NCBI RefSeq assembly: GCF_031624395.1
Contig: NZ_JAMQON010000007.1
Span: 62,001 to 126,000, forward strand
DNA from: Halomicroarcula saliterrae
Lineage (GTDB): Archaea > Halobacteriota > Halobacteria > Halobacteriales > Haloarculaceae
Reading direction: 5' to 3'
DNA length: 64,000 bases
Shown here one piece after another: positions 2,477-52,808 of the stretch. The translations under genes were made by a program, and so were the position numbers. A model generated the notes under the pieces. It saw nothing but the letters and a program-made list of their open reading frames with translations, ran no database searches and had not been told where the DNA came from. Every line of letters starts with the position of its first letter. Position 1 is the stretch's first letter.

Positions 2477-4231
<1,755 letters not shown>

Positions 4232-10362: not shown

Positions 10363-10866
10363 TCAGGTCGGATTCGGCAGCGACCGGACCATCACCAGCG
10401 CGTCCTCGCCGTTGCTGTAGTAGTTCGGGATGGTCTTGCGGTGCTCGAAACCGAAGTGGCGGTAGAGCCGTCGCGCGCCCTCGTTGTCCGCCCGCACTTC
10501 GAGCTTGGCCGACTCCGCGCCGACCGATTCGAGCAGCGCGAGGGCCCGCTTCAGCAGCGCCGTCGCGACGCCCTCGCGCCGGTGGTCGGGCCGGACAGCG
10601 AGGTCCTTGACGTGGCCCAGCGGCGTCCCGTGGTTGGGCACCGTGTCGGCGATGACGTAGCCGACGACTCGCGGCCCGTCGTCGGCGTCGGTCGTGGCGA
10701 CGAGAAAGCCCGCCTCGCCCAGATAGCTCTCGAGGGCCGAGAACGGCCACGGCTGTGGGAACACCGCCTGCTCGATGCGGTGAATCCCGAGCAGGTCGGC
10801 CCGTTCGGCCGTGCGAATCCGAAGGTCGGTGGCGCTGTCTGCCCCGTCCGACGACACCGTCGTCAC
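10363..10866 (-). CDS. rimI: RimI-like ribosomal protein/N-terminal acetyltransferase
   Basis: GNAT-family N-acetyltransferase, probably the archaeal RimI/Ard1-type enzyme that acetylates protein N-termini. The core is complete: LRIRTAERADLLGIHRIEQAVFPQPW, the acetyl-CoA loop VRPDHRREGVATALL, and the C-terminal VRADNEGARRLYRHFGF. I place the start at the GTG at 10866 (TTVSSDGADS), since the longer reading to 10923 adds a basic stretch unlike the family. It lies 32 nt upstream of the DUF5810-like gene on the same strand. Confidence 0.88.
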   Translation of the reverse strand: MTTVSSDGADSATDLRIRTAERADLLGIHRIEQAVFPQPWPFSALESYLGEAGFLVATTDADDGPRVVGYVIADTVPNHGTPLGHVKDLAVRPDHRREGVATALLKRALALLESVGAESAKLEVRADNEGARRLYRHFGFEHRKTIPNYYSNGEDALVMVRSLPNPT

Positions 10867-11093
10867 GGTGGGAGGTATGCGTCGCCGGCACATAGGTGTT
10901 ATCGCCGCCGGACCGGCCGTCACCCGAAGCGCGAAACCGACAGCCGTCGGCCGGAAACTTCTTTACTACCACTGTCGAAGCTCCGGGTGCACCCACTTTG
11001 GGTGCCACCACCCCCCACCCCCCACCCCTTTCGCGGACGAGACGACTGACTCCCGAGTGGCTGCGCCACACAGCGGGCGGCATATTCCCGGTA
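10867..11093. other. Intergenic region upstream of rimI
   Basis: About 230 bases with no supported gene. The part nearest rimI must hold its promoter. A C-rich tract (CACCCCCCACCCCCCACCCC) lies at about 11007-11030. The rest leads into the palindrome array at 11094-11212. Confidence 0.4.
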
Positions 11094-11212
11094 ACTGGAG
11101 TTGGTTCGCTCACTTCCGATGGATTCGCCATCGGTGTTCGCAATCGCAAAGCGATTGCTCACTTCCGCGGGACGCCGGCGTCCCGCGATGTTCGCGAACC
11201 CGAAGGGTTCGT
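11094..11212 (-). repeat. Palindrome array downstream of the aminopeptidase gene
   Basis: Reading the minus strand after the aminopeptidase stop, there are four short palindromes: GAACCCTTCGGGTTC, CGCGGGACGCCGGCGTCCCG, AATCGCTTTGCGATT and GATGGCGAATCCATC. They are separated by recurring linkers: GCGAACA occurs twice and GGAAGTGAGC twice. The stems differ completely in sequence while the linkers are conserved, so this is a modular array and not a simple terminator. Related linkers occur in the arrays at 25.0 and 52.7 kb. Confidence 0.7.
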
Positions 11213-12295
11213 TCACTCCCAGACGAATCGGCCGTCTTCCTGCACCGTCTCCCCGTCGACCTCCAGTAGCGACCCCTCGCCCATCGTCGTGATGAGGTCC
11301 TCGTGGACCGCGCTCTCGTTGCCGGACACCCCCGCGGGCAGGCAGGCGTCGTACGCGCGACCCAGCGCGAGGTGGACGGTGCCGCCCATCTTCTCGTCGA
11401 AGAGGATGTTGTCGGTGATACGGTCGACGCCGCGGTTCATGCCGATGCCGAGCTCGCCCAGCCGTCGTGATCCCCCGTCGGTCTCGATGACCTCCTCGAC
11501 GACGCCCGCGCCCTGCTCGGCCGAGAAGTCGACGACGACGCCGTCCTTGAACGTCAGTTTCACGTCCCGGACCCGCTGGCCCTGTATCGTCATCGGCACG
11601 TCGAACGTGACGACGCCGGCGGTGTCGGCCGGAGCGGTAAAGACCTCGCCCGAGGGGAGGTTGTGGGAGTCGTAGGCGACGCTGGCCGCGGAGTTGACCG
11701 CCGTGCGCCCGCCGATGTCGAGCGTGAGGTCGGTGCCGTCGGCGCGGATGCGGACCGTCTCGCCGTCGTCGAGGATACCCTTCAACCGGGCCTGCTCCTC
11801 GGCCAGCGATTCCCAGTCCCGCAGCGTCGCGTCGTAGACGAAGTCCTGATACGCCGCGTAGGCCATCCCGGCCTGCTGGGCCATCGCCCGCGTCGGGTGC
11901 TGAGTGGAGACCCAGTCGGTGTCCAGCCGCGCCTCGCGGATGGCCTGGCGCGCCTTCGAGTGGGCCTGCCGGCGCCCGCCCGGCACGTCGGCACTCCCCG
12001 CGGTGTTGTTCGACCCCTTGAGAATCAGGACGCTGTCCGCCCGCTCGTACAGCGCCAGTTCGTAGTCGGGGTCCGTCTCGAACTCGCCGTCGCCCGCCCG
12101 GAGATAGGCCCGCTGGAGTTCGGGCGAGCGGTAGGTCGCGAGCAGGTTCGCGCCCGTCTCGCCGAGTCGCTCGGCGACGGCGACGCCCAGGTCGTGTGCG
12201 CCCTCTCCGACCTCGACGACGACGTCGTCGCCGGCCTCGATGCGAGCGCTCCACTCGACGAGCGTGCGTGCGTGGTCGCGTATCCGGTCGTCCAT
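11213..12295 (-). CDS. Aminopeptidase, M29 family
   Basis: Metallo-aminopeptidase of family M29 (thermophilic aminopeptidase T/AmpS type), which removes N-terminal residues from peptides in the cytoplasm. The start is the ATG at 12295 (MDDRIRDHARTLVEWS), giving 360 residues, close to family length; the longer frame is not supported. M29 signatures are the N-terminal ADSVLILKGSNNT, RLKGILDDGETVRIRADGTDL, the metal-site segment GELGIGMNRGVDRITDNILFD, and GGTVHLALGRAYD with a conserved His. The stop runs directly into the palindrome array. Confidence 0.9.
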   Translation of the reverse strand: MDDRIRDHARTLVEWSARIEAGDDVVVEVGEGAHDLGVAVAERLGETGANLLATYRSPELQRAYLRAGDGEFETDPDYELALYERADSVLILKGSNNTAGSADVPGGRRQAHSKARQAIREARLDTDWVSTQHPTRAMAQQAGMAYAAYQDFVYDATLRDWESLAEEQARLKGILDDGETVRIRADGTDLTLDIGGRTAVNSAASVAYDSHNLPSGEVFTAPADTAGVVTFDVPMTIQGQRVRDVKLTFKDGVVVDFSAEQGAGVVEEVIETDGGSRRLGELGIGMNRGVDRITDNILFDEKMGGTVHLALGRAYDACLPAGVSGNESAVHEDLITTMGEGSLLEVDGETVQEDGRFVWE

Positions 12296-12477
12296 GGGCG
12301 TGGGGAGGGTGGCTGGGGTGGAAAGGGTACCGCCCAGCGGCGACCGCGCGGCCGGGCTTCGAGAGTCCGGGCACCTCGCGGAACCGAACGGACGCACAGC
12401 CGGCAAGACGGAACAGAATTGGGGGTAAATCTGGCAATCGCTTATCCGAACCCTCGACAATCATACCATGAGTATAC

Positions 12478-52552: not shown

Positions 52553-52808
52553 GGAGTAGCGGTACGGTGGGCCGAGCGCGGCCTCAGTGCCGCGCTGACG
52601 GGGAAGGGCAGGGCTGTAAGAGTGGGCATCCGGGGGCTGCGCGGTCGCGTGCGACCGCGAATGCGAACGGTGAAGCCGTGAGCAAAGCCGCCGGTTCCAC
52701 CGCGGCGAGCGGACTGCCGCGCGGCTTCGCCGCGCGAAGAAGCCGCCACGCAAGGCGTGTCGAGCGCCGTCGGCGCAGGACCGCCGGAGCGTGCAAAACG
52801 TAGGTGCG
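52553..52808. repeat. Palindrome array between thiR and cheF2
   Basis: Non-coding, 256 bp, between convergent genes. The palindromes are GCGGTCGCGTGCGACCGC near 52643-52661, GCGCGGCTTCGCCGCGC at about 52719-52735, and AGCGCCGTCGGCGC near 52762. The linkers GCGAAC, GTGAGC and the core GGTTCCACCGCGGCGAGC (52693) match the arrays at 11.1 and 25.1 kb. The right edge GTGCAAAA also ends the 25.1-kb array. Confidence 0.7.

Follow-up and report, generated by a model that had tools for sequence, protein, structure and literature searches.

The 64,000-nucleotide stretch of DNA analyzed here (the window) carries on its minus strand a gene for an M29-family metallopeptidase (P0001, positions 11213–12298; identified by translation and by PF02073, E 3e-55), and the next gene downstream in the same direction encodes a GNAT acetyltransferase (10363–10923, minus strand; PF00583, E 1.3e-19). 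The peptidase gene ends in TGG GAG TGA (W-E-stop), and the tetranucleotide GGGA in its last codons (11217–11220, minus strand) stands directly before an array of hairpins, which we read on the minus strand, the peptidase sense. The first of these, unit A1 (11190–11216, GTGAAC-GAACCC-TTC-GGGTTC-GCGAAC), includes the peptidase stop codon TGA at 11215–11213 and is followed by unit B1 (11163–11189, A-TCGCGGGACG-CCGG-CGTCCCGCGG-AA), whose pairing is kept in genome G017. Unit A2 (11136–11162, GTGAGC-AATCGC-TTT-GCGATT-GCGAAC) and unit B2 (11114–11135, A-CCGATGG-CGAAT-CCATCGG-AA) follow; when orthologs of B2 were compared, one pair was G-C, G.T and A-T in the window's own genome (G000), G017 and G022. 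Cross-species comparison also revealed a decayed third unit, A3 (11085–11113), in which GTGAGC is present and the stem is lost; A3 is intact in G022 and G025. The array is thus A-B-A-B plus a decayed third A, and it overlaps the stop codon of the M29 peptidase gene.

A first-pass annotation of this DNA had described four stems and two linkers, and all of them are present. It had also let the array begin within bases past the peptidase stop; the array does start near that stop, but A1 contains the TGA, and the array is wider than had been given. The array is beyond chance: four perfect hairpins (stem at least 6, loop 3–5) fall within 120 nt, which is the peak hairpin density of the whole window, and 0 of 60 order-3 Markov windows reached four. 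When folded as RNA, the sense strand gave z = −4.29 and the opposite strand −3.54, and 0 of 200 shuffles folded as well. A profile model, R1, was built with a short calibration from 11 units including A1 and A2, which as training members match it at E 3.1e-6 and 8.1e-7, respectively.

Farther toward the acetyltransferase gene, positions 10989–11035 hold a G-rich block (GGGGTGGGGGGTGGGGGGTGG, minus strand) and then a GCACCC hairpin. Both are conserved at the orthologous loci of many species and may represent a quadruplex or a promoter element.

Anatomy of the A-B unit

Unit A has the form STGAGC-N6-NNN-N6'-GCGARS, a 27-nt hairpin with a 6-bp stem and a triloop, the arms of which are extended by the former linkers. 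GTGAGC can pair with GCGAAC as G-C, T-A, G.A, A.G, G-C and C-G, giving one hairpin with a tandem G.A, and the minimum-energy fold shows this hairpin for A2. The linkers, although present as first described, are therefore not simple spacers, because fold and covariation indicate that they can pair around unit A. YGAR/YGAR sites are known to form stable sheared G.A pairs in both DNA and RNA. Unit B has a variable stem and ends in CGGRA. Hairpin A followed by hairpin B, ending in CGG plus two bases, makes up an A-B unit of ∼50–60 nt.

Covariation was scored in 26 units lying 5' of tRNA-Gly genes and 34 units lying 3' of tRNA genes, 60 distinct units chosen from the loci read. The proportion of cells that paired was 98.8% in either set, and both sides of a pair had changed in 28 and 46 cells (5' and 3' sets, respectively), compared with 6.7 and 11.7 in shuffles; the score for pairing and covariation was above all 500 shuffles in both sets. 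The outermost pair of A, beyond the G.A, was found as G-C, C-G, A-T and G.T, and the pair nearer the stem, in hairpins located independently of R1 at the Lhr helicase locus, was C-G in some and T-A in others. Tandem G.A with both mismatches G.A on one strand was present in 109 of 128 GC-N6-NNN-N6'-GC palindromes within 1.53 Mb of loci, a proportion biased by the G.A-containing model, and, at the Lhr locus, in 6 of 6 hairpins having a triloop and 8-bp arms, which had been fetched by protein and not by R1. A census of tandem mismatches in 464 kb of the own genome revealed no clear G.A excess (GA/GA 10 versus 10.0 and TC/TC 14 versus 9.2, Markov), indicating that the tandem G.A is a property of the A-B family and not of all hairpins there.

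A kink-turn (L7Ae site) was considered and rejected. The kink-turn rule places a three-base bulge next to the tandem G.A; the G.A pairs of unit A lie in a symmetric 2x2 site with base pairs on both sides.

Kinship had been proposed between the peptidase array and an array at 52.6 kb of the window on the strength of common linkers. The latter contains one GCGAAC...GTGAGC pair, at 52663–52683, a pair of words that the two share. R1 gave no match in that array at a threshold as loose as E <= 10, and the 52.6-kb array was dropped as a member of the A-B family. The region 52620–52790 (plus strand) holds a different tandem-G.A hairpin, GCGAACGG...CCGTGAGC, and about seven more hairpins of that form are listed in the own genome.

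Breadth of the family and comparison of gene ends

Searches with R1 yielded 30 places in the own genome at E <= 10 and 14 at E <= 1e-3. Among the matches listed, R1 hit 31 of 32 genomes of the genus (Haloarcula), including 28 of the 28 good ones, and 92 of 146 genomes and 38 of 56 genera of the order; the copy numbers, among the same matches, were 37 in G022, 34 in G017, 17 in the own genome and 1–2 in several. Twenty non-archaeal genomes served as controls, selected by way of peptidase loci from bacteria (mostly verrucomicrobial), and gave 1 match, at E 0.042. The stems differed from copy to copy, and the copies were not near-identical as they would be after a recent burst. Rfam at gathering score returned only a tRNA in the window and only tRNAs in 20 array loci, and a plasmid collection returned 9 chance-level bacterial matches, none covering 80%. 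Within the part of the literature that was covered, we recognized no published description of the A-B unit family. The loci read in detail below were mostly the best-scoring matches, up to 30 per search.

In the own assembly, three contig ends fall within or next to hairpin arrays (C3 508369–508548, C4 1–90 and C7 196320–196565); such arrays may break assembly.

Units follow the peptidase stop in G000, G017, G022 and G025, in varying number, and other genomes have at this place either no units or another repeat, which starts with TAGCGAGG. The Lhr helicase stop was read in 30 of the 32 genomes with a match, and A units with tandem G.A were found there in 4 (G017, G022, G009 and G000); three of these four have arrays at the peptidase as well. 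Because these species are related, presence at the two stops cannot be counted as independent events. Lhr-stop units occurred in 4 of 12 genes with GGGA, compared with 0 of 18 with GGGG; 2 of the 8 GGGA genes lacking tandem-G.A units had remnants by eye. Across the species compared, the arrays are clade-limited, most species lacking them at both gene ends.

Between G000 and G017, all 29 compared stem pairs of the peptidase array were kept, and both sides had changed at several. Such conservation of pairing, with no broken pair among the 29, would be expected of a selected RNA element whose hairpins serve as a terminator or stabilizer at mRNA 3' ends and as leader or trailer structure in pre-tRNAs, and the arrays of protein genes are indeed sense-oriented and placed immediately at the stop. 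In one Haloferax assay reported in PMC7237163, a hairpin with nothing else brought about 59% termination. However, the same paper gives T stretches as the intergenic terminators of Haloferax volcanii, and 0 T-rich tracts follow the hairpins in window positions 10900–11300, so the earlier suggestion of a terminator lost its support in the intrinsic T-tract form, which was rejected. The lack of the array in most species at both the peptidase and Lhr ends also counts against a selected RNA element, and we consider this explanation unlikely.

Units beside tRNA genes and at other sites

The units stand at four kinds of unlinked site, namely tRNA ends, a T-arm-like sequence, a GGGTGGGA|CTGAAAG palindrome and the stop codons of protein genes; related arrays elsewhere in the genome, on which the first-pass proposal of a family depended, do exist. 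Among the 14 own-genome matches at E <= 1e-3, 8 have a tRNA gene no more than 400 nt away, 2 lie beside a contig end carrying tRNA-Gly 3'-end sequence and 1 lies at the stop of a HerA-like gene; 2 are A1 and A2 of the window, and 1 has neither kind of neighbor. Across the loci read, 82 of 123 distinct units were within 400 nt of a tRNA as called by ARAGORN, the intron option of which missed the tRNAs of locus L249. Eighty of these 82 units point toward the tRNA and 2 away, with 39 on the 5' side and 43 on the 3' side. The strand bearing the G.A is the tRNA sense strand in the 39 units on the 5' side and the antisense strand in the 43 units on the 3' side, so that no single RNA strand carries the motif, a further point against a selected RNA element. 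Copies next to tRNA-Gly and tRNA-Arg are found repeatedly throughout the order.

At tRNA genes the parts run in the order tRNA-end copy, A, fold-back of the tRNA end, spacer and intact tRNA. To the left of A, a copy of the facing tRNA end of 8–16 nt was present in 37 of the 42 units within 60 nt, compared with 1.15% of random pairs; to the right, an inverse of that end of at least 7 nt was present in 20 of 42 (random, 3%).

The direct repeats (at least 8 nt in those 37 of 42) could be the cores of tyrosine integrase att sites, with the units as remnants or decoys at tRNA ends and the hairpins filling the gap. tRNA genes are preferred archaeal integration sites (PMC8371274), and extra copies of a tRNA 3' end occur after tRNA-Lys in loci L226 and L252. 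Yet the A-B unit is also present, with no tRNA sequence around it, at the stops of genes and within the GGGTGGGA repeat, and it is too short for an integrase gene, which makes an origin from att sites quite unlikely in our judgment. The inverse copies raise another alternative, in which template switching and slippage at palindromes make or correct hairpins in place and arrays grow locally without mobility. The left arm of B would then be complementary to the tRNA end as a fold-back copy, as it is in the 20 of 42, and unit number does differ between sister species at one locus. Local growth leaves unexplained a constant 27-nt A with tandem G.A and tag at unlinked sites, as well as the existence of uninserted copies of the repeat target, and we regard it as very improbable.

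The tRNA-Lys copies just mentioned, at L226 1225–1640 and L252 1010–1520, are tandem, and each has an inverted T-arm hairpin, after an intact tRNA gene.

At the T-arm-like sites, the unit stands between GGGA and TTTGAACC. Other units interrupt a repeated palindrome in its right arm, at GGGTGGGA|CTGAAAG. Counted exactly, GGGTGGGACTGA plus three bases occurs at 45 places in G017, of which 3 continue as unit A (CTGAGCG), 48 in G022 (4 filled), 20 in G025 (1), 5 in G009 (0) and 7 in the own genome, where 1 is filled by a decayed unit (CTGAACG). Some of the filled GGGTGGGA sites may be copies of a single composite repeat. The repeated palindrome itself, CCCCTTTCAGTCCCACCC...GGGTGGGACTGAAAGGGG (locus L288), has 45 exact half-sites in G017 and 48 in G022 and is rare in the own genome (7).

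Arrays start at the stops of peptidase, Lhr helicase, MutL, TGT, HerA-like and DUF5795 genes, among others. Non-tRNA clusters were defined as having no tRNA within 600 nt, with the three clusters of L249 left out, and 8 of these 21 begin where an open frame of at least 100 codons stops; a loose rule gave 10 of 21, from which L223 and L238 were dropped because the matched TGA lay outside the array. The controls were 1326 of 9347 TGA (14.2%) and 6 of 25 GGGASTGA. Starts at gene stops are moderately above control, which is support and not proof.

Loci L221, L222 and L238 contain units ending in GATG before TTTTAACCACGTG, at two near-identical places in G017 and one in G022; Rfam gave no match in L221 or L238.

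Junction tag and proposed mobility

The bases directly before the unit were GGGA in 66 cases, GGTG in 30 and GGAA in 12, so that 108 of 129 units carry a tag that R1 did not include. For the mechanism, we regard this tag as the best single lead. The unit ends with a tag-like CGGRA (CGG plus two bases). In T-arm sites with a GGGA target, the last bases of the unit can be CGGTG or CGGAA, which argues against simple target duplication; cases with CGGGA and GGGACTGA are ambiguous in this respect, because GGGA or GGGACTGA can be the repeat or a shared target.

Taken together, the A-B unit is probably a mobile, non-coding, REP-like two-hairpin DNA unit that enters 3' of a GGGA-type tag. Of the three functions first suggested for the array, a mobile palindromic unit fits best with the unlinked arrays, the constant left tag, the uninserted targets and the clade-limited presence. 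The unit would enter 3' of the tag as folded single-stranded DNA, and an endonuclease reading hairpin and tag would probably cut and join. Since the end of the unit is tag-like, the new junction could be re-entered, giving A-B-A-B arrays. A target in a gene would read ...TGGGA(S)TGA, and the STGA of the unit itself would keep the stop codon, so that insertion after the peptidase would be harmless and tolerated; later effects on mRNA 3' ends would be secondary.

Several observations speak against mobility. The stems differ between copies, and the order-wide copies at tRNA-Gly and tRNA-Arg also fit an ancient selected element; moreover, a plain tag-insertion model does not predict the tRNA-end copy of 8–16 nt left of A. 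The ambiguity of the exact unit ends, the possibly composite GGGTGGGA repeat, the census without clear G.A excess and the moderate excess of starts at gene stops count on the same side. No mobilizing gene was found for the A-B units. The Y1 transposase (PF01797) had 0 matches in G000, and 11 of the 32 genus genomes are without it, all 11 with R1 matches. Y1/RAYT was accordingly rejected as the mobilizer in the own genome, and from the units in genomes without Y1 we infer movement by another enzyme.

The A-B units resemble bacterial REP/BIME elements (RAYT/TnpA_REP), which are short, mostly intergenic hairpins whose foot is directly preceded by a tetranucleotide and which form tandem or mosaic arrays (PMC3733652, PMC6006769); a short palindromic hairpin in several copies is likewise found here. 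They differ in the tag, which is GGGA/GGTG/GGAA and not the GTAG of REPs, in having an invariant tandem G.A in the helix and two unlike hairpins per unit, and in an own genome without Y1 transposase. SMR-A of Haloquadratum walsbyi, as described in PMC3119063, is also haloarchaeal, short and transposase-free; it inserts into palindromes and is said there to make no target duplication, and its mobilization is called enigmatic. For A-B units, a position within a palindrome was seen in the CCCACCC...GGGTGGGA repeat and in T-arm fold-backs. SMR-A is about 110 bp long with terminal inverted repeats and targets PATE/IS605 ends, whereas A-B units of ∼50–60 nt lie at tRNA ends, gene stops and a repeat palindrome. 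By reading, A-B units have no terminal inverted repeats, their starts (STGAGC) and ends (CGGRA) not being mutual inverses.

IS200/IS605 ends and PATEs share subterminal hairpins and entry next to a fixed tetranucleotide (PMC6006769); in contrast, the own genome has no Y1 gene, and hairpin A begins directly at the junction. Archaeal tRNA att sites are similar in that tRNA-end direct repeats flank the tRNA-side units, and differ because A-B units come without an integrase and also occur at non-tRNA sites. REP/BIME, SMR-A, PATEs and att sites each share something with the A-B unit, but for every one of them at least one defining feature is lacking or in doubt. We file the A-B units with the palindromic mobile repeats, as a variant apart from those described.

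A wider proposal, possible though rather unlikely, is an order-wide system in which an enzyme not belonging to RAYT/Y1 would move hairpins, stiffened by tandem sheared G.A, in the form of folded single strands. tRNA ends would be its ancestral homes, where the unit would carry a tRNA-end copy and fold-back; the tRNA would thereby remain intact, or the decoy end might even protect it from integrases.

The family would be a palindromic repeat widely shared among archaea that follows clear rules of tag, tandem G.A, triloop and orientation toward tRNA genes. A-B units are comparable to bacterial REPs but lack the REP enzyme, and they provide a search image for a putative mobilizer of single-stranded DNA. 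In Haloarcula, they may account for a number of assembly breaks and for gene ends that differ between lineages, and they make it possible to test covariation in DNA hairpins.

A second repeat family, GTAGCGAGG-stem-CCTCGA, occurs in tandem in locus L006 at about 3000–3300 and is also present in L003, L107 and L022. In other species it directly follows the peptidase stop, with the TAG stop inside it, and its GTAG start resembles bacterial REP tags.
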